Shown here piece by piece: positions 6,654 through 63,454 of a stretch of DNA of 64,000 nucleotides. Origin of the DNA: Rhodobacteraceae bacterium IMCC1335. Lineage in GTDB: Bacteria > Pseudomonadota > Alphaproteobacteria > Rhodobacterales > Rhodobacteraceae. The translations under genes and the position numbers were made by a program. Numbering within the stretch: the first letter of the stretch is position 1; every line of letters starts with the position of its first letter. The notes beneath the pieces were generated by a model, which saw only the letters and a list, made by a program, of their open reading frames with translations, was not told the origin of the DNA and ran no database searches. The stretch is from assembly GCA_039640495.1 (NCBI GenBank), contig CP046864.1, forward strand, positions 1,116,001-1,180,000. The letters run 5' to 3'.

Positions 6654-7754
6654 TTATGGGTGCAAAATTTCTGCGGCAATATCTTGCAGCTTCACAACTT
6701 TATCACTGGCGCCAAGATCAATCGCGGCTTTTGGCATGCCAAATACCACGGATGTTGTTTCATCCTGCGCAACGGTTTTCCCACCTGCATCTTTGATTTG
6801 CAACAAGCCTTTTGCCCCATCGCGCCCCATTCCGGTCATTAAAATGCCCATTGCATGTTGCTTTGCGGCGGTTGCAACAGAAAAAAACAGCCGGTCCACC
6901 GACGGGCAATGCCCATTCACCAAATCGCCTTGCGTGACCTTAACCCAATAGCCTGCGCCCCTTTTTTGCACCTCAAGATGCTTGCCGCCACAGGCGATAA
7001 TGGCCTGCCCTTGGCGTACCGGTAGATGATCGGTGGCTTCTAAAACATCGATGCTGCACAATGTGTCCAACCGGTCTGCAAAGGCTTTGGTAAAGCTTGA
7101 TGGCATATGGACAACGGCAACGATGCCGGGGCAGGTTCTGGGCAAGGCGGATAACACGCTCATCAAGGCGCTGGTTCCCCCGGTTGAAGTGCCAATGGCG
7201 ACCAAATTTTTTTGATTTTTTGAGGAAACTGTGCCGCGCGGCGGTTTGGGCATCGTTTGCGGTTCGGGGATTGACGGCAGAGGGAAAGGGCGTATTGGCA
7301 CCGGATCCTGCTCCACTATCGGCGAAGCGGCGGTGGGTTTTGCCCGTAATGGCCGGGTGGGGGCATGCGATAAAAACCATATTTTTTCTTCAATTTGAGG
7401 CAATAAAAACCGAATATTTCGCATCAGGTTGCGCTCTGGTTTGATCAAATAATCAGCATGCCGTGATTTTAACGAGAGATTTCTATCGGAAAGCGTTGAT
7501 AGCAATTCGGGGGCCAGCAAGAATAGCGTTGGAATTTTTGTTTCGCCTTTTGCTTTGTCGAGGGCAGAGATAATATCAAGCGTGTGAACGTCGAGATTTA
7601 ACAAAATAACATCGGGCGTGCGTTTTGCAAAATAGCGCAGCACGCGGCTGGCATTGCAAGGCATTGCCGTCGCCTCTATCAAGCCTGTCGATAAAAAATA
7701 TTGGCTCAGGGCTTTGCGGATGATCGCGTCAGAGGCGATGATAACGAGCTTCAT
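6654..7754 (-). CDS. cheB: CheB-type protein-glutamate methylesterase with degenerate receiver
   Basis: Removes methyl groups from (and can deamidate) chemoreceptor glutamates; cytoplasmic, 366 aa. Residues 1-120 are receiver-like, 130-180 a Pro-rich linker, and 183-365 the methylesterase domain. The catalytic triad is intact: Ser190 in GTSTGG, His216 in VVHMP, Asp312 in MGRDG. The receiver lacks normal phosphorylation chemistry: the phospho-acceptor position in PDVILLNLDV is Asn53 rather than Asp, and only one residue of the acidic pair (Asp9) remains, while LIKP keeps the conserved Lys. So regulation by CheA phosphorylation looks lost or altered (inference). It is the last gene of the seven-gene operon, 6 nt after cheR. 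Confidence 0.92.
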   Translation of the reverse strand: MKLVIIASDAIIRKALSQYFLSTGLIEATAMPCNASRVLRYFAKRTPDVILLNLDVHTLDIISALDKAKGETKIPTLFLLAPELLSTLSDRNLSLKSRHADYLIKPERNLMRNIRFLLPQIEEKIWFLSHAPTRPLRAKPTAASPIVEQDPVPIRPFPLPSIPEPQTMPKPPRGTVSSKNQKNLVAIGTSTGGTSALMSVLSALPRTCPGIVAVVHMPSSFTKAFADRLDTLCSIDVLEATDHLPVRQGQAIIACGGKHLEVQKRGAGYWVKVTQGDLVNGHCPSVDRLFFSVATAAKQHAMGILMTGMGRDGAKGLLQIKDAGGKTVAQDETTSVVFGMPKAAIDLGASDKVVKLQDIAAEILHP

Positions 7755-7760
7755 AAAAAT

Positions 7761-8630
7761 TCAGGCCCTAAGGAAGATCTGGATGTTTTCGAAAGACCGC
7801 CGGCGCAACTTGTTGCAAGCCCTTTGGCATTTTATATTCACTTCAGACAGGCCGATAAAAAGAAACCCCCCCGGCTCTAACGCGTTAAAAATGTTTTCCA
7901 AAAGCGTTACGCGACGAGCTTCGCTGAAGTATAAAATCACATTTCGGCAAAAAATGATGTGGAAACGCTGCTTGAATGGAAATTTTGCACTGGCGAGATT
8001 AAACCAGCGGAATAAGATTTTTTTCCGCACCTTTTTGATAAACTGGAACCTGTCTTCGCCTTGTTTATGGGTGTAGGATTGGAAAATCTGCGGCGCTATT
8101 TTTTGCAAACGTTCATTTTGAAATTGCCCCGAATAGCCTTTGCGCAGCATTTCGCTTGAGATATCTGTGGCCAGCACCCCGGCCTGCATCTCCCAGAATG
8201 GATCTCCATAATATTGATGCGCTGCAAATAAGAGCGAAAATGCCTCTTCGCCAGACGCGGCTGCCGCGCTCCACATGCGCAGCTGACGGTCTGGGCGGGG
8301 CAGCTGAACGGGCGCGATGGCGGGCAAAGCAGTTTGGGATAAATAGTTAAAATGGGCGTTTTCGCGAAAAAATGACGTATGGTTCACGGTGAAAATATCG
8401 GTCAGAGGTTGGAAAGCGCTGGTGGCTTTTGTTTCTTGCCAAAGCGATATTGTGCGCGCCAGATCGGTAACCCCGTGCTCATTGAAAAACTGCAAACTGC
8501 GCGTTTTTGCAACAGGGGGAATGGTTTTGGGCAGCACCAAGCCAAACAGGTTCAAGAACAGCGCTTTGATCAGCGCATAGTCCTGCGTGCTTAGGTCTTG
8601 CATGGGGGTTATTGGGCGTTCCAGTCCCAT
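7761..8630 (-). CDS. cheR: CheR-type chemoreceptor methyltransferase
   Basis: S-adenosylmethionine-dependent methyltransferase that methylates receptor glutamates. An N-terminal helical domain is followed by the Rossmann domain with TVNHTSFFRE, the SAM-binding MWSAAAASGEEAFSLL, the ATDIS strand end, HIIFCRNVILYF and the C-terminal EPGGFLFIGLSE. A beta-subdomain-like insertion precedes the FCRN motif; in other CheR proteins this element docks a receptor C-terminal pentapeptide. The start is uncertain: TTG 8642, ATG 8630 and ATG 8603 are in frame. ATG 8630 has an AGG close upstream and overlaps the cyclase gene by 22 nt; 8603 would leave a 5-nt gap. Sixth gene of the operon. Confidence 0.93.
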   Translation of the reverse strand: MGLERPITPMQDLSTQDYALIKALFLNLFGLVLPKTIPPVAKTRSLQFFNEHGVTDLARTISLWQETKATSAFQPLTDIFTVNHTSFFRENAHFNYLSQTALPAIAPVQLPRPDRQLRMWSAAAASGEEAFSLLFAAHQYYGDPFWEMQAGVLATDISSEMLRKGYSGQFQNERLQKIAPQIFQSYTHKQGEDRFQFIKKVRKKILFRWFNLASAKFPFKQRFHIIFCRNVILYFSEARRVTLLENIFNALEPGGFLFIGLSEVNIKCQRACNKLRRRSFENIQIFLRA

Positions 8631-10663
8631 ATGCCTGTCCAAGTTTTGGGGGGCTTGGCCATCAGGTTCTGACAGCGTTTTAAGAACAAACTGGACGGGG
8701 TGAGCGAGGCGTTCAAACCTTTTGGTTCATGCTCTTGGGCGGCTTCAAAGCAGCTATGCGCAGCTTTAAAATCCGCCTTGGTGTATTTTGAAAATCCCTC
8801 GTTGAAAGTTTCAGCCAATCTTTTTTGCGTGTCAGACGCTGCGTCCCAGCGATCCATAAGTTCAAAACAGGCCAGAGATTGTGATTTGCCTTTCACGGTC
8901 ACGCGGTCGATCATGCGCGTGCAATATCGGTCTTGATGAGCGCTGATAATGCTTTCTCCTAGCAAGTTTTGCAGGCCATAGAGTTTGGCAGCAGCTTCAA
9001 GGCGGGCTGCCGTATTGACCGTATCACCGATGACGGTCAGGTCGATCCGGGCTTCAGCTGCGCCAAGATCGCAGAGGATTGCCGGGCCTGAATGCGCGCC
9101 AATTCTAAGGGCGAAAGGGTCAGTTTTTAACCGTGGATCACTTTCGTTCAACGTCCTGAGGCTGGCTTTAATTTCAAGCATAGTGTCAAGCAGTGCTTTT
9201 TGAGCGTTGTTGCTTTGATCATGAATCCAAAAGGCCATGCAGGCATCGCCGATGAATTTATCAATATCACCGCCATGCTTAATGATCGTCCGGGTTACCA
9301 AGCTGAACAGCTTATTCACCTGTTCCACAACATCACCCGGGGCATAGGCTTCGCATCGAGGGGTAAAATTCATGATGTCGATAAACGTCACGGTTACGGT
9401 TTTTCGATCGGCGCGCGGGGCGGTTTGTCCAGCGCCCCAAACCGCCTTTTCCAGCGCCACCTTCAACGAGGCTTTGGAGACATAACGTTGCAATTGAGCT
9501 TGTTCGTCTTTGGTGCGCCGGTCCGCGAGTGTTTTTTCAACTTTTGCAACCAAATCATGTACGCCAAAGCCTGTGGTAACCGCGGCCTTGGCGCCGGCAT
9601 TCAAGGCCATCCGGATATTTGCCTCATTGGTATCGGGCAAAAGAACGATCACCTCCGGGGTGCTGGGCAGATCGCTTGTGTTTAATCCATTAAACAGGTC
9701 AACGATCGTACCATCGCTTGGCTCAAATTCACAAATCACCAAATCGCAGGTGCTGCGCTGAACGGCTCTGAGAAAGGCGGCGATGGTGGGCACGCGTTTT
9801 GTGCGAAATCCCTGCAGGTTCAAAACCGCTGCAATATCTTGGTCACTGGTTTCAGGGCCTTGCAAAATGACAATGCTTTCGCGGGCACCTCGAAACCTTT
9901 CCAGCATCGCACTGACCTTTTCTATCAACCCTTCAACATGCACCGGTTTTCCAATGAAAGCATCGACGCCCACGTCAAAGCCCTTGCGTTGGTCGGTAGC
10001 GGAGGAAAGCGTGCTTGACATGATTAAGGTGGCCTCGGCAGTAAGAGGGTCATTTTTCAGCGCGGCGCAGGTTTCATAGCCGTTCATTTTCGGCATTTCG
10101 ATATCACAAATGATCAAGTTTGGTTGCTGAGTTCGCGCCATCTGATAGCCTTCCTCGCCATCAAAAGCTTGCGCCACCTCAAAGCCTGCCTGCTGCAACG
10201 GCCCAACAATTGTTTTATGCACCAAAGCCGAATCGTCGATCAAGAGAATCTTATTGCGCCGCGTATTTGCCTTTTCAATCGCCGCAACAAAATCCTCGCC
10301 AGCGACTGGAAATTGCAGAAAACCATCGCAAATCCCCACCACATCGGGGGCAAGCGCATAATCTAAGGATAAAAATAAAATTCGCAAATCGGCTTGAAAC
10401 AGGCGCTTTAAGCGAAAAGCCACATTGATCAATTCCTGTTCATTCGTGTCCGATTGCAGCACCAAAGTGGTTTTGGGGTTTTCTGAAACCTTCGTCACAA
10501 TATGGTTTTTTGCGATCAGCTCGAAATCAAAGTCTTGATCCTGCAAACAGGTTTTCAAGTATGTGGCATAAAGTTCATTTTCGAGGCAAAGCAAAACGGT
10601 GTCCCGTGCCTGTGTTTGGGCCATCAGCTCGGAGGGGGTGGGCATGTGCAAATTCTGGGGCAT
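8609..10663 (-). CDS. triple-receiver class III adenylate cyclase
   Basis: Predicted soluble response-regulator cyclase making cAMP, 684 aa. Residues 20-130 are a degenerate receiver, 138-255 an intact receiver (Asp143/Asp144, phospho-acceptor Asp187 in CDIEMPKMNG, Lys239 in GKP), and 265-385 a third receiver with Glu312 in place of the phospho-Asp. Residues 420-610 are the cyclase homology domain: metal ligands Asp429 (FIDIMNF) and Asp473 (DKFIGDACMAFW), with VIGDTVNTAARLEAA carrying the transition-state Asn/Arg. Lys469 and the Asp before TVIGD fit ATP rather than GTP specificity. A helical TPR-like tail ends the protein. It sits 26 nt after cheA and overlaps cheR, so CheA is its likely phospho-donor (inference). 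Confidence 0.92.
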   Translation of the reverse strand: MPQNLHMPTPSELMAQTQARDTVLLCLENELYATYLKTCLQDQDFDFELIAKNHIVTKVSENPKTTLVLQSDTNEQELINVAFRLKRLFQADLRILFLSLDYALAPDVVGICDGFLQFPVAGEDFVAAIEKANTRRNKILLIDDSALVHKTIVGPLQQAGFEVAQAFDGEEGYQMARTQQPNLIICDIEMPKMNGYETCAALKNDPLTAEATLIMSSTLSSATDQRKGFDVGVDAFIGKPVHVEGLIEKVSAMLERFRGARESIVILQGPETSDQDIAAVLNLQGFRTKRVPTIAAFLRAVQRSTCDLVICEFEPSDGTIVDLFNGLNTSDLPSTPEVIVLLPDTNEANIRMALNAGAKAAVTTGFGVHDLVAKVEKTLADRRTKDEQAQLQRYVSKASLKVALEKAVWGAGQTAPRADRKTVTVTFIDIMNFTPRCEAYAPGDVVEQVNKLFSLVTRTIIKHGGDIDKFIGDACMAFWIHDQSNNAQKALLDTMLEIKASLRTLNESDPRLKTDPFALRIGAHSGPAILCDLGAAEARIDLTVIGDTVNTAARLEAAAKLYGLQNLLGESIISAHQDRYCTRMIDRVTVKGKSQSLACFELMDRWDAASDTQKRLAETFNEGFSKYTKADFKAAHSCFEAAQEHEPKGLNASLTPSSLFLKRCQNLMAKPPKTWTGIWDWNAQ

Positions 10664-10689
10664 GGTTAATCCAAATCCTTAGGCAGAGC

Positions 10690-13683
10690 TCAGGGCGCGG
10701 TTGGGGCAAGGCAGGCCTTGTCCAACGCGGCGATGATGTCATCTTCATTGATGGGCTTTTCGAAAAACTCGGTTGCGTTTAACGCAGCCAAACGGCGTTT
10801 TTCCGGGCCGTCGCTTATTTTTTTGCCGGTGATCATGAAAACGGGTGCTGCGCTTAACCCGGGCTGCTCGCGCAGGCGCTCAACAAATTCATAGCCATCC
10901 ATTAAGGGCATAACGATATCCACGCAAAAGGCAGAGATATGGCGCGCAGCAGCTTTTGAAAGCGCATCATGGCCATCTGTGGCGCTTTCAACTTGATACC
11001 CTGCCCGCGTTAACAAGGCGCTTAAGCGGTTGCGTTGGAGCGCTGAATCATCCACCACAAGGATTGTATGATCGGCCCGTTGCAACGTGGCGGCATCGGT
11101 TGTGATATCGTTTAACGGCGCTTGAGTGTGCAGGTCCTCGGTTAAGATTTCCCCCACATTGAGGATAAGCACCAAATTACTATCTGACAGGATTGTGCAT
11201 CCCATCATGAAGTTAATTTTTGAAACCAAGGATCCAAATTGTTTGATTAACACGTCTTGCCGGCCCTTCACCTCATCCACCAGGATGCCGATATAACGGT
11301 CGCCATCCGCCAAAACGATGATCGTTTTTTCCACTTGGTTGAAGGCGCTGGGTGGAAAGTTTAACAAACGCGAGAGGGTGCTCACCGTGACCGTCATCCC
11401 GCGATAATTAAACACCAAGCCGCCGCCCACCCGGCGCAATCCGCTTTTTGACACGGTAAGAATTTCTACAACATTCGATACTGGAAACGCGAATTGATGG
11501 CCGTTTTCGCTGGCCAATAAAATGCCCACAATTGCCAGTGTTAACGGCAAACGCAGAGTGATTTTTGTGCCTTTGCCCTTTTCGGTTTCGATATCAACCG
11601 TGCCTTGCACTTGCGTGATGGCGGTTTTTACGACGTCCATTCCAACACCGCGCCCTGAAAGCTCGGTGACGTTTTCTGCGGAAGACAGGCCGGGATGAAA
11701 CGTCAGATCTAAGATGTCTTTTTGGGTTAAATTTTCGGCCGCGGCGGGCAGCACCAATTCGCGCTCCAAGGCCTTCGCCAAAATGGTATCGAGGTTGATC
11801 CCGCGACCATCATCTTTGATTTCGATCACCGCATTTGAGCCCTGATAATAGGCTGAGAGTTCAATTTTGCCGATTTCTGATTTGCCTTGGCTTAGGCGCT
11901 CTTCGGGGGATTCAAAGCCGTGATCCAAAGAGTTGCGGATAATATGAAGCAGAGGATCGGCCAATTGATTGATCAAAAGTTTATCAAGCTCTGTGCTGGC
12001 ACCCGAGAGGATCAAATTCGTCTTTTTGCCCGTCTTTCGCGCCATATCTCGAACCTGCGCGGGAAAGCGATTGAACAATTGCGCCACCGGCACCATGCGA
12101 AAGCTCATTGCGCCGGTTTGCAAACGCCCGCTTAGCCCCTCAAGATCTTCGATATTCTTTTGTAATTGTTTGCGGGTATCGTCTATGCGCATCATCGTTA
12201 GGCGGAACTCTTCCGGAAAAAACTCCAAATTCTGCAAAATTTCGCTGTCTAAAATATCTTTGATTTTTTTCAAACTGGCCCGCTCAGAGGAAAGGCCAGA
12301 GATACGCGATTGACCTTGGCGGCCCGTAGGTTCGATCAGATCATTATCCAGATCAAGCACCTTTTGCTTTAAGCTTTCCACGGCTTCAAACACCAAATGG
12401 AATTTTGCGGTTCCAGTCAGTTTTTCCAAATTGTAAAAGGATTGCGTTAAAACATGCAGATCGTTTTGCAGCCGGATACGCGTGATAAATACCTCTGAGG
12501 CGGTGTTCAGCACATCATCCAGCTTTTGCGCGGGGATGCGAATGGTTTCATCTTGCGCAATTCCCGGTGTGACAGTGCCAGCGGATTGTATAGCTGCTGG
12601 CGCCGCCTCGGAATTTGGCTCTGCATTTTTATGTGGCTCTGCAGAAGGTTGGATCGCCGGTTTGGCTGGATCCGTTGAGGCATATAGAGTCTGTATAAGC
12701 GGTCTGATCGGCGTATCCAGCGGCCGTTCTTCAATCACCTGTCGGATCAAATGCCCCAAACCTGCGACTGCTGACATCAACCCATCGATCAGATTGGATG
12801 AGATGTTCAATCGCTTTGAGCGCATTTCATCCAAAATTGTTTCGACCTCATGCGCAAGGGTTTCAATCTTTTTGATCTCGAGCAAGCGCGCGCCGCCCTT
12901 TATCGTATGCACAGCGCGAAAAATTTGGTTGATAACCTCAAGCGGGCTTTGCGTTGTTTCCAACTCGATCAGTGAGAGTTCGATCGCATCCACATTATCC
13001 TGCGCCTCTTGTGTAAACGCTGGGATTAAGTCGCGTTTATCCGCGCCGATCAACAGTGCCTCGGGTTCGCTATCCAGCGCGTCGAGCCGCTTGAAAAGCG
13101 CTTCAGAGGTTTGCGCCAAGGCGGCTGGCTCTGCATTGGGGCTCTGAGCATCCTCATGACGCTCGGGCTCTTCGGTATTTCTTCGTTTTATATCTGCCGC
13201 TTGATCCTGCGTGAGGGTTTCGTTGAACTCAGTTAAGGCAAGGCGCAAATATCCCTCTGCTTCGCCGATAATATCGCTGATATCCGCTTTGCCGTCTTCA
13301 GACTCTTCCCAGTCTTTTAAAAGCGTCAGCGTGTTTTCAAATAGAAGCTGCAGCAGGTAATCCATCGAATGCTGGCTAAAGCTGTGGTGAAATCGACCAT
13401 AATCCAACATAAACACAATGATTTGCATCAACTGCCTTGGTTGCATTATCCGCAACACATCCAGCATGCCAAAGATCAGATAGCCCCTGCGATAGGCCAT
13501 ATCATAGGCCTCTTGAGGGGTGTCAGGTTTGACTTTTATCAACGTCAAAAGATCGGAATAAGCCTGTTCGGTGGTTTCAATTAACTTTTCCAACAGCGCC
13601 ATATCCGACGCGTCAAGATCGGGGCTTTCGACGTTTTTATCGGGGATATCAACCGTTAAGATCGCTGGATCATACATTTGCAT
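10690..13683 (-). CDS. cheA: hybrid CheA-type sensor histidine kinase with C-terminal receiver
   Basis: Chemotaxis-family histidine kinase, 997 aa. Residues 25-160 are an N-terminal helical region I do not recognise. An Hpt (P1) domain follows at about 218-320, with phospho-His259 in AVHTIKGGA. A short Ala/Pro/Glu linker stands where P2 usually lies. Then come the dimerisation domain, an ATPase domain (LLHIIRNSLDHGFE N-box, IKDDGRGINL, SGRGVGMDVVKT), a CheW-like domain, and a C-terminal receiver with VVDDSALQRNR, phospho-Asp922 and FFEKP. An apparent lack of P2 plus its own receiver suggests output other than docking a free CheY. Fourth gene of the operon, between the MCP and cyclase genes. 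Confidence 0.95.
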   Translation of the reverse strand: MQMYDPAILTVDIPDKNVESPDLDASDMALLEKLIETTEQAYSDLLTLIKVKPDTPQEAYDMAYRRGYLIFGMLDVLRIMQPRQLMQIIVFMLDYGRFHHSFSQHSMDYLLQLLFENTLTLLKDWEESEDGKADISDIIGEAEGYLRLALTEFNETLTQDQAADIKRRNTEEPERHEDAQSPNAEPAALAQTSEALFKRLDALDSEPEALLIGADKRDLIPAFTQEAQDNVDAIELSLIELETTQSPLEVINQIFRAVHTIKGGARLLEIKKIETLAHEVETILDEMRSKRLNISSNLIDGLMSAVAGLGHLIRQVIEERPLDTPIRPLIQTLYASTDPAKPAIQPSAEPHKNAEPNSEAAPAAIQSAGTVTPGIAQDETIRIPAQKLDDVLNTASEVFITRIRLQNDLHVLTQSFYNLEKLTGTAKFHLVFEAVESLKQKVLDLDNDLIEPTGRQGQSRISGLSSERASLKKIKDILDSEILQNLEFFPEEFRLTMMRIDDTRKQLQKNIEDLEGLSGRLQTGAMSFRMVPVAQLFNRFPAQVRDMARKTGKKTNLILSGASTELDKLLINQLADPLLHIIRNSLDHGFESPEERLSQGKSEIGKIELSAYYQGSNAVIEIKDDGRGINLDTILAKALERELVLPAAAENLTQKDILDLTFHPGLSSAENVTELSGRGVGMDVVKTAITQVQGTVDIETEKGKGTKITLRLPLTLAIVGILLASENGHQFAFPVSNVVEILTVSKSGLRRVGGGLVFNYRGMTVTVSTLSRLLNFPPSAFNQVEKTIIVLADGDRYIGILVDEVKGRQDVLIKQFGSLVSKINFMMGCTILSDSNLVLILNVGEILTEDLHTQAPLNDITTDAATLQRADHTILVVDDSALQRNRLSALLTRAGYQVESATDGHDALSKAAARHISAFCVDIVMPLMDGYEFVERLREQPGLSAAPVFMITGKKISDGPEKRRLAALNATEFFEKPINEDDIIAALDKACLAPTAP

Positions 13684-13731
13684 ATTTTATCCAAAAAGGC
13701 CGTTGGCCAGCGCCTTCGGCGCCGCCAGCGA

Positions 13732-15462
13732 TTAATAGTTTTCAAAATTATTTGATTGAATTGGGTCTGAGGATGGTGCCGGTGGTCGCGATGGGGGCGC
13801 GGGCATCGATTGCTGAAAGCTCACCTCGTCAGAGGGGTGGTCGGTTTTGAAGCGGGCGACCAATGCCTTCAAACGAGGGGCCAGAGCCGAAACCGTTTGC
13901 GCGGTTTGAAACAATTGTTGCGCGGCTGAGGCATTGCTTTGAATAACCCCGTCCAACACTTGCACCGAAGTGTTTATTTGCGCGGCTCCGGTAGATTGTT
14001 CTTCCGAAGAGGCGCTGATATTTTGGACCAGATCTTTGGTTTTTTCGATCTCGGGCAACAAAGCATTGAGCATCTGGTTGGTTTTTTCAGCCAGCTCTTT
14101 GCCTTCGCCAGACGAGACTTGAATATCAGAGGCGGCTTGCTTGCTTAATTCGGCCAGTTTTGACACTTCTGAGGCTACCACGGCAAAGCCTTTGCCATGC
14201 TCGCCAGCGCGGGCCGCCTCGACCGAAGCATTCAGGGCCAAGAGTTCAATTTTGCGTGTGATTTCTTCAACAATCGTAATTTTGTCCGCGATATCTTTCA
14301 TGGATCCTGCGGTTTTTTCCATTGCTTGCGCGCAGACCTGCGCGTCTTCTGCCAAAATTGTGGCTTTGCGATCGGCTTCCACCGCGCCATCCGCATTTTC
14401 GCGGATGGATGTGGTCATCTGCTCCATCGCTGTTGCGGTTTCTTGAACCGAATTGGCTTGCTCGGTGGTGCCATCCGAGACTTGCTGAGCACCGGATTGC
14501 ATTTGCTCTGATTGCTCGGTGACCTGGCGCGAAACCTCAAGCAGCGAGGCCACAATATTCGTGAGATTTTCCTGCATTTTTGAGATTGCGCGCATCACCG
14601 AACCGATTTCGTCATTGGAAGACAAATCATTTTTCACGGTGAGGTTGCCGTCAGAAATTTGATCGACAGAGATGATTGTTTCGCGCAAACGGCGCCGGAT
14701 ATTCACCGCGATCCAAATGCCGATGCTAAGCGAGATAAAAAGCGAAGAGCTGATGATCAGAACGGTGACTCTAAGAGCGGATTTTTCTGTTTCTTCAGCT
14801 TCGATCATTGCTTGAAGTGAGATCTTTTGGACGGTATCGCGCAATTTGCTCAAATGCGTATCCAAGTGTTTTTGCGTCTCTTCTAACTGAACCAAAACTT
14901 TTTGCCGCTGAATTCTGGCAAATCTTGTAATCTGACTTTGTGCACTTGTGTGTTCCAGTAGCTCTATGAATTTTGAGCTTTGAATGGCGTATTCGTCATG
15001 TTTCTGCCCTACAAGTTCCAAGCTTTTTAGAATATTGTTGTAAGTCAAAACACTCTGCCCCAGGTCGTCTTGGACTTGGGCCATAGTGCTGGTGTCGATA
15101 TTGTTTTCTTCAGGATTAAGTGTGTCAACAGTACTGCGTATTAAGGTTTCAGCCAGTTCTAGTTCCTTCGCGACAACCTTATTCAGTTGGTGGAAATTAC
15201 TCAGATGCATTTTGTATTTTTCAATCTCATCTAACTCTAAATTTAGCGCTGCTCCGGTGAGCGCCAGCTCTTGGTTTAATTGATGTTCAGAAATTTTTGC
15301 GACCTGATTTTGCAAAGGAATTTCAACTGTTGATAGATTGTGGATTTTTTTACCAATCGAAGCCATTGAGGATATTGAATAGAGGCCGGAAGCGAGGCTG
15401 GTGAGGCAAAATAAAAGAATAAGCGATATGATTTTGGCAGACAGGCTCATCGAGGTTTTCAT
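13732..15462 (-). CDS. methyl-accepting chemotaxis protein, membrane type
   Basis: Transmembrane chemoreceptor, 576 aa. TM1 is at about residues 8-28, the periplasmic helical sensor region at 30-225, TM2 at about 230-252, a HAMP domain at 253-305, and the signalling hairpin at 310-545 with tip [20 protein letters not shown]. The sensor region is rich in Leu/Glu/Gln helices, four-helix-bundle like, and ligand cannot be told. After a Pro/Ser-rich tail the protein ends in NFENY, which matches the aromatic-x-x-aromatic pattern of CheR/CheB-tethering pentapeptides such as NWETF. AGGAG lies 6 nt before the ATG. It is the only receptor in the operon, third in order. Confidence 0.95.
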
Positions 15463-15550
15463 GTCAGCTCCTAGTTTTAAAAAAAATTGGCTTTAATAAG
15501 CAGTCTTGGTCATTGGCGCCCAAAAACAGACGCTTGATCTTAGTCTGGGG

Positions 15551-16816
15551 TTAAATAAAGTTTCTTTTTCCGCGGTATTCGTTCAAATTTTCAGACCCTA
15601 TCAGGTCGGGCAATGACAGGCGCATGATGGTGAGTTCGCCGATTTCGCTAATACCTTGGAACAGATCTGACACAGGCTCTGACAGAATTTCTGTGCTGTT
15701 GCGAAAGCTGCGTCTATCAATGGTCATCATCCCCAACACGTCATCCACGCAGAGCACCAAATCTTTGCCATTTTCTTGCAAGACCATGTATTTGTTGCGT
15801 TCATCCAAAGCCCGCGGCATCAAGCTTAGATCTTTTGAGATATCAAGGCACGATAATACCTGCCCCCGTAGATTGATTAAGCCCCGCAAAAAATTTCCAT
15901 CTCCATAAATAGGCGTGACTTCATAGCCCTCTATAATTTCGATTACATTCTCGACCGGAACCACAAAATGCACATTGGAAATGCGCGCATGAATAAATTC
16001 ACTGGTTGTGCCAAACGTTTTAACCTGCCGGCCTTGCGTGATGTCCTCTTGGCCCTCAATCACGGTTTGACTGCCAATCTTGACAGCTACCTCTTGTGCC
16101 AAACGCTGTGGTGAAATCAGGGTTAAATTGGAACTTTGATAGCCGATCACGTCTAAGATGAAAAAGGCGCGTGCTGCATCGGTTAATATTCGGTTGCGTG
16201 GATCCAAAATGTCATCAGCGCATGACAAAACGGCTACATGACGGTCCATTGACAGGCAGAGCAACGTGCCATTCACGTCTAATTTAACAATCGATTGCGG
16301 GGCTTTGGCCGCCTGATTTTGTGAAGTTGCGGGGGTCAAATCGCCACATTCGAAAACGGGAAGCAAACAGTTGCGATAGACCACAGTGCCAATACAGCTG
16401 CGCAGATTCAAGGTTAGCGGTTCGATTGGCGCAAAATCGCGTACAACTTCCACTACATATTTCACGGGCACGCCGAATTGCGTATTATGGCGTTCGAAAA
16501 TAAATAATTTTGAATATTCAGAAAAGGCTTCATCGGTTTCTGCAAGCGGTGAAAACGCGACGCGCGGCGCCTCTGTTGCGTTTGCTTGTGGCTCTTCGCC
16601 CGCTTTAGCGCGCCGGCGGGTGTCAGGCTGTGCATCGCGCTGTTGGGATTGCTCGACCTCTGCCTCTGTTACCGGCGCGGCTTTATCAGCCATATCGATC
16701 GCTTGGGTCTGCAAGGACAGATCTTGCAAGCGGTTTTCGGGCAGGGCTTGCATTAAATCTTCAAGCTGGGTTTCTGCTGTTTTCGTCGCTGAGACGGGCT
16801 TTAAAGCTTTGCTCAT
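15551..16816 (-). CDS. double CheW-domain coupling protein
   Basis: Cytoplasmic scaffold predicted to link the MCP to CheA, 421 aa. Residues 1-95 are a polar, Ala/Glu/Gln-rich tail. A first CheW domain lies at about 105-245 and a second at about 265-412, the latter with the clear RGLINLRGQVLSCLDI motif. The first is more diverged (CIGTVVYRNCLLPVFE at the equivalent place). There is no receiver, so this is not CheV. Tandem CheW proteins are known in some chemosensory systems. It overlaps the ParA-like gene by 4 nt (ATGA), giving coupled translation. No ordinary single-domain CheW gene is present in the window. Confidence 0.9.
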   Translation of the reverse strand: MSKALKPVSATKTAETQLEDLMQALPENRLQDLSLQTQAIDMADKAAPVTEAEVEQSQQRDAQPDTRRRAKAGEEPQANATEAPRVAFSPLAETDEAFSEYSKLFIFERHNTQFGVPVKYVVEVVRDFAPIEPLTLNLRSCIGTVVYRNCLLPVFECGDLTPATSQNQAAKAPQSIVKLDVNGTLLCLSMDRHVAVLSCADDILDPRNRILTDAARAFFILDVIGYQSSNLTLISPQRLAQEVAVKIGSQTVIEGQEDITQGRQVKTFGTTSEFIHARISNVHFVVPVENVIEIIEGYEVTPIYGDGNFLRGLINLRGQVLSCLDISKDLSLMPRALDERNKYMVLQENGKDLVLCVDDVLGMMTIDRRSFRNSTEILSEPVSDLFQGISEIGELTIMRLSLPDLIGSENLNEYRGKRNFI

Positions 16817-17475
16817 GCAGCGGCCTCCGATTTATGCTGCGTGATGCGCTCCATCACCTCCCAACCCAGCGCGCGAAACTCTTGCGCGGCGCGGCTGTTT
16901 TGGTGGAAAATCGAGCAGCGGTTGAAATTCGCTTCAGCCTGCGAAACGCGTTGAGAAATCGCGGTATCCGCGGCTTTATACCCATCTGCCATAAGCTGTT
17001 GTCGGGCATGTTGGAAGGCGACGGAATGTTTGTTAACCGCGTTCAAAACGGGCAATAAGCGATCTGAGGATGTTGCAAATTTTGGATTGACGCGTCGCGC
17101 AAACGCGGCCACCCAACCCAAGCCTACCAAATCATCGCGCGAGGGGCGGCAGGGGGTAATGATCAAATCTGAGGCTTCCAAACAGGCGGCCAATTCCCGC
17201 GAGACGGCGCCCTGACTGTCAACGCATAAAATATCACATCTGCTTTGTTTGATATATTGTCTTATACTGTTTTCTTCATTGGCCACATAGGTTTTAACGT
17301 TCTCTAAACATTCATCTGAGCTTTCGCGCACCCAGTCATGGCTTGATTTTTGAAAGTCGGTATCAAGAATTGTGACGTTGCGGCCGCGCATCCCGAAATA
17401 GGCTGCGAAGTTGACGCAAAATGTGGATTTTCCTGATCCACCTTTTGAACTGGCGAAGGTGATAATATATGTCAC
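16813..17475 (-). CDS. ParA/MinD-like ATPase of the chemosensory operon
   Basis: Deviant-Walker ATPase, 220 aa. The signature KGGSGKST at residues 11-18 contains both Lys residues of the ParA type, DTDFQKSS follows the second strand, and ILCVDSQG is the Walker B strand. Relatives encoded in chemotaxis operons (ParC of Vibrio, PpfA of Rhodobacter) position chemoreceptor clusters in the cell; that role here is inference from context. There is no parB beside it, unlike plasmid or chromosome segregation loci. It is first gene of the operon. The start is GTG at 17475, which puts the Walker motif at the usual distance; the ribosome binding site is weak. Confidence 0.9.
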   Translation of the reverse strand: MTYIITFASSKGGSGKSTFCVNFAAYFGMRGRNVTILDTDFQKSSHDWVRESSDECLENVKTYVANEENSIRQYIKQSRCDILCVDSQGAVSRELAACLEASDLIITPCRPSRDDLVGLGWVAAFARRVNPKFATSSDRLLPVLNAVNKHSVAFQHARQQLMADGYKAADTAISQRVSQAEANFNRCSIFHQNSRAAQEFRALGWEVMERITQHKSEAAA

Positions 17476-17703: not shown

Positions 17704-18023
17704 GTCTGGTAGGTGCATTGATTTTTACATTTAGGGCCGTTTCAGCCGGTTTGATCTTTCTGAACTTATGCTTGGCAGGATGAAGGCCCCTGCGCGAAGG
17801 GCAGATCTGGTCTGTTCAATCGGGTTTTACGCTCGCTTATTGAGCGGTTATCGCGTTTTTTGCGTTTGCGGGCGCAGATGCCGTTTTGAAAAAAAAGGAT
17901 CTTATCCTTGGCGGGCAAGCGATCAGGCCTAACTTCCACGTCAAGGCGCATGGCGCGAGGCCTTGTTGTCTTTTTATTCTTTGATGCGTCAAGATGCGAA
18001 TACAACAAACCACTGGGATAGGC

Positions 18024-18791
18024 ATGTTTGGAGCAAAAGGTTGGCGTCGGTTTAAGGCCAATGATGAAATCAAAAAATGGGCGAACGCGGCGCGAAAATT
18101 CGCCAGTGGCGCAGCGCAAACCCCCGCCTTGAAAGAAAAATGGTTGCAATGCGAAGGCACTTGGTTTGTTGGCGTAGACGTCTTGCCTTCGGGTGATGAC
18201 GGGCGATTTGAGGGTATTGAGCTGGCCGGACCTGCTTCAGAGTTAATTCAAAGCGTGGCTACAAAGGCTCTGCACCCCGCGCAGGTCTCAATTCTTTATC
18301 CGGGATATCCAAAACCAAGGCAGGGCGAAACCAAGGCTGGGTTTGCCTATCGGCTGACACGGGATGCGGCGCATGTGGACGGGCTTTTGCCCGTCGGCGC
18401 AGCGCGCCGCCGTATGTTGCGCGAGCCCCATGCCTATGTGCTTGGTTTGCCCTTGAACGCCTGCGATATCAAAGCCAGCCCGATGGTTGTCTGGGAGGGC
18501 TCGCATCTGATTATGCACAAAGCGTTTCAGGCCGCACTTAGCCCCTATCCTGCATCGCAATGGTCCGATATTGATCTGAGTGAGGTGTATCATGCCGCAC
18601 GCCGAGACGCTTTTGCAAACTGCCGCCGCGTGGCTGTTCATGCCGAGCCTGGCGAAGCCTATGCGATCCATAGGCTAGCGTTGCATGGGATTGCCCCATG
18701 GCAAGCGGATGCCCGTGCCCCCAGCGAAGGCCGTATGATTGCCTATTTTCGGCCAGAATTGAATGATATCGTGGAGTGGCCAAATCTATAA
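18024..18791 (+). CDS. putative phytanoyl-CoA dioxygenase-like (2OG-Fe(II)) protein
   Basis: About 255 aa, no signal peptide. The candidate metal triad is His-x-Asp in RDAAHVDG plus a distal His in IHRLALHG, with a following conserved-looking Arg near the C-terminus. WEGSHLIMHKAF resembles the Gly-Ser-His segment after the first strand pair in PhyH-family dioxygenases. The fold assignment is inferred from these motifs and their spacing; substrate is unknown. The frame opens at ATG 17994, but GGGATAGGC just ahead of ATG 18024 makes the latter the likelier start. It is followed by the DUF1272 gene 47 nt downstream on the same strand and divergent from the chemosensory operon. Confidence 0.65.
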   Translation: MFGAKGWRRFKANDEIKKWANAARKFASGAAQTPALKEKWLQCEGTWFVGVDVLPSGDDGRFEGIELAGPASELIQSVATKALHPAQVSILYPGYPKPRQGETKAGFAYRLTRDAAHVDGLLPVGAARRRMLREPHAYVLGLPLNACDIKASPMVVWEGSHLIMHKAFQAALSPYPASQWSDIDLSEVYHAARRDAFANCRRVAVHAEPGEAYAIHRLALHGIAPWQADARAPSEGRMIAYFRPELNDIVEWPNL

Positions 18792-56203: not shown

Positions 56204-57271
56204 TTACGCGCTCGAGATTGCGGTTTCATCTTCGCGCCGAAAGGCGATGACGCCGCTTGTTACCAAATCTTGGATGGCTTGGACAACCGCGTTCAAAGCT
56301 GCCTCGCCTTGTTCATATTGGATTGCCTTCATATGGGCGATATCGTCCGATAGGTTCTCGGCCATCCGGCGAGGCAGGTTTTCAAGGATAAAAGTTGCCG
56401 TGGCGTTTGGACCGGCTTTTTGTGCATAGGCCAGCGCGGTTGCAAGCTCGATGGTGTTTATGCTGCGGGTAATCTGGGAAATATCGCTGGGATGAAGCCG
56501 CTTGTGAATGTCTTTAAAGGCAAACATCACTTGCCGAACCCGATGCGCAAAGGCGGGGTCGCTTTCATCAAGGCCATCTAGAACATCATCGCGCAGCGCT
56601 TGCGTGGTTGCGGTTAAAATAGATCCCACCCGCTCTTCCGGCGATAGCGCAAATGCACGATCAGGTAGGTTATCGAGCTGCGCTAAAAGGCTTTGACCGA
56701 TCCGTGAAATGGCTTGCGGGGTGACATGATGGGTCATTGAAATTGCATGGCTGATTTGGCGTGCGTGTTTTCCGGGCAATTTCCCCAGCAGCGCCGCTGC
56801 TTTTGACACATCCAACTTTGAAATAATAATTGCGCTGACCTCTATGCTCTCTGCCTCGATTATGGCGATCAATTCATCGATATCGCTGATATTCAATCGA
56901 TCCCAAGGGTCTGAGAATTTGCGCACGCCGGCTTCTTTGCGCAACCGCTCTGCCGTTTCAGTGCTGATTTTACCTTCCAGCAGGTTCAGTGTTTGCGCCG
57001 CACCGCCGCGCAAATTTAACCCGATCGAGGTGACTTCGGATGAGAATTCTTCAATCACTTCTGTTAACAGATTGCGCTCAACAAATTGTAAATTGGCCAA
57101 TTCTTTTGCCAATTGTGCTTGGGCGTCGACACTGAGGTCATCGAGCGGTATTTCCAAGCCACTGCGCAGCATCGCGCTGACCACGATCGCGGCTTTTTCA
57201 GCCTGACTTATAACGCGCGATGATGCTGCCGCCGGGTTAGAATTAGAATTGTCTGCTGTTGGTTCTGACAC
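56204..57271 (-). CDS. fliG: FliG-family flagellar motor switch protein, divergent
   Basis: 355-aa rotor protein. An N-terminal domain follows a 20-residue Asn/Ser/Ala tail (SQAEKAAIVVSAML), with a middle domain at about 115-200 and a C-terminal torque domain. Compared with E. coli from memory, the middle-domain EHPQ motif reads ESIE, the C-terminal Lys264 position is Ala and Arg297 is Gln, while Arg281 and the Asp288/Asp289 pair are kept (SDDIAHM). No other flagellar gene is in the window. It may serve a motor whose stator contacts differ, or this may be usual for Rhodobacterales FliG. Confidence 0.85.
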   Translation of the reverse strand: MSEPTADNSNSNPAAASSRVISQAEKAAIVVSAMLRSGLEIPLDDLSVDAQAQLAKELANLQFVERNLLTEVIEEFSSEVTSIGLNLRGGAAQTLNLLEGKISTETAERLRKEAGVRKFSDPWDRLNISDIDELIAIIEAESIEVSAIIISKLDVSKAAALLGKLPGKHARQISHAISMTHHVTPQAISRIGQSLLAQLDNLPDRAFALSPEERVGSILTATTQALRDDVLDGLDESDPAFAHRVRQVMFAFKDIHKRLHPSDISQITRSINTIELATALAYAQKAGPNATATFILENLPRRMAENLSDDIAHMKAIQYEQGEAALNAVVQAIQDLVTSGVIAFRREDETAISSA

Positions 57272-63369: not shown

Positions 63370-63454
63370 GCGGGTGTGGCGAAATTGGTAGACGCACTAG
63401 ATTTAGGTTCTAGCGCCGCGAGGCGTGGGGGTTCAAGTCCCTCCACCCGCACCA
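63370..63454 (+). tRNA. tRNA-Leu (anticodon UAG)
   Basis: 85 nt including encoded CCA. The acceptor stem GCGGGTG pairs with CACCCGC; D-arm region GGCGAAATTGGTAGACGC; anticodon stem CTAGA/TCTAG with loop TTTAGGT, anticodon TAG at 63404-63406; a long variable arm (class II); T-arm GGGGGTTCAAGTCCCTC. Reads CUN codons. Located 25 nt upstream of tig. Confidence 0.97.

Follow-up and report, generated by a model that had tools for sequence, protein, structure and literature searches.

We analysed a 64,000-nucleotide stretch of the Rhodobacteraceae bacterium IMCC1335 genome (the window; positions 1116001-1180000 of a one-contig, 3,735,584-base genome) that carries a seven-gene chemosensory operon with a class III nucleotidyl cyclase among its products. 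Our reading, to which we assign a probability of roughly 70%, is that in the only CheA/CheW pathway of this genome CheA phosphorylates the second receiver domain (REC2) of a three-receiver adenylate cyclase and in this way, rather than via CheY, which usually carries the signal to the motor, sets the level of cyclic AMP (cAMP). The reading draws on the gene set and its order, on conservation, on the states of key residues, and on the finding of neither a linked CheY nor, by domain search, a second CheA/CheW. Phosphotransfer, activation on phosphorylation, the cAMP product, array positioning and adaptation are all predicted from sequence. In the proposed scheme, a membrane-bound MCP chemoreceptor, CheA and a double CheW protein (CheW2) would form an array; the receptor would control phosphorylated CheA, which would pass its phosphate to REC2, and phosphorylated REC2 would alter cyclase activity and thereby cAMP. 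The receiver of CheA itself could act as a phosphate sink or brake. A ParA-like ATPase likely positions the array through a basic N-terminal peptide of CheW2, and methylation-based adaptation of the receptor is likely the task of CheR and CheB, without the usual feedback through phospho-CheB.

The three-receiver cyclase and its CheA

The operon is transcribed in the order parA, cheW2, MCP, hybrid cheA, three-receiver cyclase, cheR and cheB, all on the minus strand between positions 6654 and 17475. As described in the initial annotation, the seven genes are co-directional and overlap or nearly do so: parA and cheW2 overlap by 4 bp, gaps of 88, 48 and 26 bp separate cheW2 from the MCP gene, the MCP gene from cheA and cheA from the cyclase gene, the cyclase gene and cheR overlap by 34 bp if the listed TTG is the cheR start, and 6 bp lie between cheR and cheB. 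Each of the seven open reading frames (ORFs) is backed by Pfam in the protein scan of the window. The matches comprise CheB_methylest (204 bits), CheR (153 bits), Response_reg (95 bits) and Guanylate_cyc (63.5 bits) in the cyclase, Hpt, HATPase_c, CheW and Response_reg in CheA, MCPsignal and HAMP in the MCP, two CheW domains in CheW2, and a ParA-type ATPase. The features of the proposed kinase and its target are as follows; counts over 121 rows refer to the window cyclase and 120 matches listed of 280 homologs found.

8609..10663, minus strand: REC1-REC2-REC3-class III cyclase, 684 aa, the proposed output (Pfam, alignment, AlphaFold model)
10262..10600, minus strand: REC1, pseudo-receiver with Gln70 at the acceptor position (Gln in 119 of 121 rows, Asp in none)
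9893..10255, minus strand: REC2, phosphorylatable receiver with Asp143, Asp144, Asp187 and Lys239 (Asp187 in 120 of 121 rows, Lys239 in 121)
9509..9883, minus strand: REC3, pseudo-receiver with Glu312 at the acceptor position (Glu 64, Ser 37, Asp 2, other 18, of 121 rows)
8849..9427, minus strand: class III cyclase catalytic domain with Asp429, Asp473, Lys469, Asp541, Asn550 and Arg554 (Pfam, alignment, structure matches)
8612..8833, minus strand: conserved helical C-terminal tail ending in W-x-G-x-W (alignment, AlphaFold model)
10690..13683, minus strand: hybrid cheA, 997 aa; no other CheA was found in the genome (Pfam, CheW-domain search, alignment)
13171..13611, minus strand: CheA residues 25-171, a bundle of five helices about as large as an Hpt domain, lacking an invariant His (alignment, AlphaFold model)
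12760..13029, minus strand: CheA Hpt (P1) domain, residues 219-308, with phospho-His259 (His259, Lys262 and Gly263 invariant in 10 of 10)
10714..11070, minus strand: CheA C-terminal receiver, residues 872-990, with Asp878, Asp879, Asp922 and Lys976 intact (invariant in 10 of 10)

The AlphaFold model of the cyclase (mean predicted local distance difference test (pLDDT) score 80, predicted template modelling (pTM) score 0.50) places three receiver folds before the catalytic domain; Pfam detects the middle one and matches the third below its cut-off. The initial annotation had described the protein as a REC3-adenylate cyclase. The three folds bear this out, but only REC2 keeps the residues for phosphorylation, its acidic pair being retained in 121 and 120 of the 121 rows, as expected of a response regulator. 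REC1 and REC3 were considered as general phosphorylation sites and set aside, the acceptor Asp occurring in none of the rows for REC1 and in two for REC3 (P0049 and P0120). The sole exception to the REC2 acceptor is P0002, a near-identical 609-aa homolog on a 39 kb contig, in which the region is absent: residues 1-136 of CheW2 (94% identical) are fused in frame to residues 205-683 of the cyclase (97%). In P0002 the stretch from the MCP through CheA to the phospho-receiver appears to have dropped out between the fused parts, whether by a real deletion or through an assembly fault.

The catalytic residues, described earlier as intact in the window, are intact across the family as well, with Asp429, Asp473, Lys469, Asn550 and Arg554 in all 121 rows and Asp541 in 120. 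We take Asp429 and Asp473 to be the metal-binding residues, Lys469 and Asp541 to select adenine, and Asn550 and Arg554 to stabilize the transition state, which together make up the residue set of a class III adenylate cyclase. A product other than cAMP, such as cGMP or another nucleotide, or a silent enzyme, is conceivable in that specificity is predicted from residues only; given this near-invariance, and given that the nearest solved cyclases are adenylate cyclases (among 60 of 154 PDB sequence matches listed), we consider either outcome highly improbable. By Foldseek, the catalytic domain likewise matches the adenylate cyclases OaPAC, CyaB and CyaC, and the best match of the receiver stack is PleD.

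The AlphaFold model of CheA is weak overall (mean pLDDT 64, pTM 0.31), with local pLDDT mostly 77-91 in the bundle of residues 25-171. Since the C-terminal receiver of CheA is intact too, the operon holds two live receivers, that of CheA and REC2. CheA has no P2 domain, and its combination of a C-terminal receiver with a missing P2 is typical of pathways for alternative cellular functions (ACF), while not exclusive to them: according to PMC10782961, most CheA proteins with a C-terminal receiver have no P2, and they fall chiefly into the F3, F5, ACF and type IV pili (Tfp) classes.

Recurrence of the operon in relatives

A cyclase profile, A1, was built from 29 cyclases (that of the window and 28 of the 120 homologs listed). 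It yielded at least 11 full or partial orthologous loci (L017-L027) and a further two, in G1324 and G1140, both complete genomes. Counting the window, there are 14 loci; L021 and L023 begin at a contig end, leaving 12 that can be assessed upstream. On how often the gene order recurs, a question raised in the initial annotation, the answer is that cheA lies directly upstream of the cyclase gene in 12/12 such loci, from Rhodobacteraceae, SAR116, Methylocystaceae and Spirochaetes; in L025 cheA is fragmented, and in L026 the contig ends within the cyclase gene. The full gene order seen in the window is also found in L019, L020, L024, L168 and L169, with two MCPs in L019 and L020; L018 and L017 are cut versions, and the SAR116 locus L027 has parA at the far end. 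MCP, cheW, cheA and cyclase genes are kept in part in L026 (Methylocystaceae) and in L022 and L025 (Spirochaetes/Leptospiraceae), three loci in which no cheR or cheB was matched. The arrangement is more than chance, the order recurring in other genomes at 38-51% identity to the window in CheA; the identity to the window in the cyclase is 40-46%.

For six operon proteins, the pairwise distance matrices are correlated in 15/15 protein pairs (Mantel r 0.91-0.99, n 7-10, p 0.0005-0.0055), which indicates that the proteins diverged together. The cyclase tree splits the Rhodobacteraceae-type carriers into two groups, that of the window also containing SAR116, and in the CheA tree the position of the window is not resolved; because of long branches, both trees are tentative. 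The two carrier groups with SAR116 beside one of them fit either a transfer or an old duplication.

In seven draft alphaproteobacterial carriers, all CheW-domain matches fall in the operon's own CheA and CheW2 (one in G1363, three in each of the others); the count covers drafts, which are incomplete. Four Spirochaete draft carriers have 14-28 CheW-domain matches each. These results bear on whether the cyclase is regulated mainly by an input other than CheA, with REC2 serving another kinase or the pseudo-receivers binding a partner, and the operon providing only co-expression. Partner binding is plausible in that two of the three receivers lack the acceptor in nearly all rows, and P0002 retains the catalytic part without CheA. 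Set against this are the unbroken adjacency to cheA, the correlated divergence of the operon proteins, and the finding of no other CheW-domain system in the seven drafts, and we judge such an input quite unlikely.

An order-wide trait was also considered and rejected: among 390 genomes of the order the only full-length cyclase match is in the window's own genome, as it is among 385 of the class and 398 of the phylum. The genome draws for order, class, phylum and family overlap, and the other matches listed cover about 39-69% of the model.

CheY, the flagellum and the cAMP context

A CheW-domain search of the whole genome gave three matches, all inside the operon, which is thus the only chemosensory (CheA/CheW) system found in the genome. 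The initial annotation had reported the absence of cheY, and this extends to the relatives: the window operon holds no separate receiver ORF, and so not the linked single-domain CheY that marks the Fla class, and a receiver hidden Markov model scan of 11 fetched carrier flanks found no other receiver ORF and no linked CheY. At the level of genes, the output logic proposed earlier, from receptor through CheA to the cyclase, is supported by this single CheW-domain system, here and in the seven drafts, and by the conserved REC2 acceptor; the flow of the signal we infer.

The carriers differ in how many cyclases could contribute to the cAMP pool. The complete carrier G1140 (3,288,122 bases), from the same family, has one class III cyclase match, the operon's own, and among the 10 carriers tested there are up to 29. 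Downstream of cheB in G1140 come genes for a metallo-β-lactamase (MBL)-fold hydrolase and for a stand-alone cyclic-nucleotide-binding protein of 113 aa (PF00027, 62.5 bits), and a like pair occurs in the genome of the window.

L169:16362-17496: MBL-hydrolase and cyclic-nucleotide-binding gene pair beside the operon
L170:5815-6969 (own genome): the same type of gene pair beside another class III cyclase gene

Because the pair adjoins a class III cyclase gene in both genomes, it supports a cyclic nucleotide as the output in G1140. Across 169 loci and the window, two loci have strong MBL matches, L004 of the own genome and L064 of a cyanobacterium, and five have weak matches to the cyclic-nucleotide-binding domain (E 1e-7 to 4e-3). 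The MBL protein of G1140 matches a cyclic-nucleotide phosphodiesterase model over nearly its full length but weakly (33 bits against a cut-off of 400).

Several observations weigh against a CheA-cAMP pathway. P0002 has neither CheA nor an intact REC2. The window's own genome (3.7 Mb) has 16 class III cyclase matches, so that an effect on bulk cAMP is less certain here than in G1140. The better NCBIfam matches of the MBL protein are RNase Z and PhnP, and its gene pair adjoins the operon in L169 alone among the 169 loci and the window. The full-length cyclase family is rare (3/394 genomes of the family), and the cyclase profile had no match in G1330, an assembly of the same species that is 97% complete and totals 2.7 Mb over 90 contigs (3.7 Mb here). 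The window's own genome encodes a flagellar cluster that includes FliG and FliM, so the absence of a linked CheY is not the absence of a motor, and stand-alone receivers encoded elsewhere could still draw phosphate from CheA. The genome has 32 receiver matches above the cut-off and one below, the stand-alone frames that were read being of about 130-205 aa. The last points would suit a CheA whose main target is a CheY-like receiver encoded elsewhere and which steers the flagellum, leaving the cyclase as a side branch or phosphate sink; the presence of FliG in 7 of the 11 carriers tested is in line with it. Yet the four stand-alone receivers that were scanned match PhoB, PleD, CpdR and hybrid sensor kinases best and not CheY, among the best 25 models listed, and in the relatives it is the cyclase gene, not a cheY, that follows cheA. 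We therefore regard steering by a distant CheY-like receiver as unlikely, and phosphorylation of REC2 as the better account of the operon.

The FliG test covered 11 of the 14 carriers, all but the three from Leptospiraceae, and the four without a match are drafts of 1.4-2.2 Mb. The main FliG of the genome lies at L106:9524-10549. A second full-length FliG (FliG_N, FliG_M and FliG_C; 355 aa) is encoded at 56207-57271 of the window, minus strand, outside the flagellar cluster, and G1330, G1324 and G1370 also have a second FliG_C match. A second candidate locus for a phospho-regulated cyclase lies elsewhere in the genome, at L097:4165-8367 (genome positions 164664-168866), where consecutive genes encode a hybrid histidine kinase, a stand-alone receiver and a REC-class III cyclase.

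Predicted adaptation and array positioning, and known systems

The remaining operon features concern the receptor, its adaptation and the placement of the array.

7761..8642, minus strand: cheR methyltransferase, 293 aa (Pfam)
6654..7754, minus strand: cheB methylesterase, 366 aa (Pfam; NCBIfam 266 bits, below the cut-off of 293)
7395..7754, minus strand: degenerate receiver of CheB, acidic pair changed to Ala-Ser and acceptor to Asn (8-locus comparison)
6666..7202, minus strand: esterase domain of CheB, Ser, His and Asp motifs kept (8 of 8 loci)
13732..15462, minus strand: MCP chemoreceptor, 576 aa, with two hydrophobic (membrane) segments, HAMP and signalling domain (Pfam, sequence)
13735..13749, minus strand: C-terminal pentapeptide NFENY of the MCP (sequence end)
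16813..17475, minus strand: parA-like ATPase, 220 aa, opening the operon, with the deviant Walker A motif KGGSGKST (Pfam, NCBIfam)
15551..16816, minus strand: cheW2, 421 aa, with two CheW domains; no other CheW protein was found in the genome (Pfam, genome CheW-domain search)
16712..16816, minus strand: CheW2 residues 1-35, an N-terminal peptide, basic and conserved, that is proposed to partner ParA (motif alignment)

Adaptation by CheR and CheB, as claimed in the initial annotation, holds in part: both genes are present and CheB has its Ser-His-Asp esterase motifs, but it does not have a phosphorylatable receiver. The acidic pair is not intact in any of the eight loci compared (Glu-Pro in three; Ser, Ala or Asn in five), and the acceptor Asp is kept in 7/8, the window having Asn. 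Phospho-feedback on adaptation has therefore probably been lost, and REC2 is left as the sole intact receiver outside CheA. CheB as a second phospho-output was rejected for the same degeneracy. The MCP ends in NFENY, which we take to be of the CheR/CheB tether type; the strict x[FWY]xx[FY] ending occurs in 10/16 MCPs collected from the operon loci. MCP signalling-domain matches in the genome fall in two frames, and the second MCP, at 1673505, has no C-terminal pentapeptide.

The ParA-like protein matches Pfam CbiA, AAA_31 and MipZ above their cut-offs and the NCBIfam ParA_partition model below its own (103 bits against 180), and its deviant Walker A motif has the signature Lys of the ParA/MinD group. 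A parA gene is present in eight loci, the window included, and all eight share the motif [ML]-x-K-[KA]-[LF]-x-x-[IVF]-S-[PA] near the start of CheW2, with a second near-copy in L027. The motif is not found in L022 and L026, and the available pieces of these two loci show no parA. According to PMC5706961, PMC7993993 and PMC10241942, ParA-like ATPases position chemosensory arrays via the N-terminus of an array protein, and ParP is described as an array protein that resembles CheW and binds ParC through its N-terminal part (PMC5706961). CheW2 has CheW domains and a conserved basic N-terminal peptide, and by analogy with the system in PMC7993993 we infer that this peptide is a candidate ParA partner linking the array to the ATPase; ParA binding is putative. 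The operon would thus resemble ParC/ParP of Vibrio and PpfA/TlpT of Rhodobacter sphaeroides in pairing a ParA-like ATPase with the N-terminus of an array protein, and departs from ParP and TlpT in that the candidate partner is a double CheW with a short basic peptide.

Other known systems share parts of the design. The Chp/Pil chemosensory system of Pseudomonas aeruginosa is said, in work of 2010 by Fulcher, to regulate cAMP, and the CyaB domain is a close structural match to the catalytic domain of the operon. In P. aeruginosa, CyaB is a separate protein reached via single-domain regulators, whereas here the cyclase is itself the receiver protein, encoded beside cheA. PleD (REC-REC-GGDEF), the best match over the receiver stack, has one live and one pseudo-receiver before its cyclase domain; the operon protein differs in being a class III adenylate cyclase instead of a diguanylate cyclase and in having one receiver more. 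As in ACF pathways such as Wsp with WspR (REC-GGDEF), the regulator of the array has an enzymatic second-messenger output and CheA is a hybrid with a C-terminal receiver. Unlike in those pathways, the output is of the cAMP type, there are three receivers, CheR has no tetratricopeptide repeat (TPR) match, the CheB receiver is degenerate, parA and a double CheW are present, and the system is the only chemosensory one found in its genome.

In PMC3447774, a REC-mononucleotidyl cyclase appears among the regulators of CheR-TPR clusters, and such multidomain regulators are tied to ACF pathways; by that definition, the operon carries the ACF mark of a cluster-encoded multidomain response regulator with enzymatic output. 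In general terms, then, the idea is already known. No description of this operon was found in literature titles and abstract openings, a scope that leaves most of the subscription literature outside. Newly found in the sequences compared are the degeneracy of the CheB receiver (8/8 loci) and the conserved basic N-terminal peptide of CheW2 (8/8 parA loci).

A wider reading is that a line of flagellated, little-cultured alphaproteobacteria has taken its one chemosensory array off the motor and rewired it to cAMP, with adaptation cut from CheA phosphate and ParA carrying the array by a CheW tail; we would give it even odds. If the proposed pathway is real, it would be a minimal natural system that runs directly from receptor through CheA to cAMP with no CheY, a clean case in which to ask how an array adapts without phospho-CheB feedback, and a receptor-fed cAMP pathway in lineages of Rhodobacteraceae and SAR116 that are represented here mainly by draft assemblies. 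With its one class III cyclase match, G1140 makes the link between chemosensing and cAMP directly testable.

Promoter and terminator counts are at the level of shuffled sequence, and an Rfam scan of the window gave a tRNA at 63370 alone. A plasmid-borne operon was considered and rejected: 21 plasmid records matched at E 1e-20, none covering 80% of the query. Divergent from the operon, at 17994-18788 on the plus strand, lies a 265-aa ORF with no Pfam match. The G+C content of the operon is 49.3%, lower than the 54.4% and 53.0% of its flanks.

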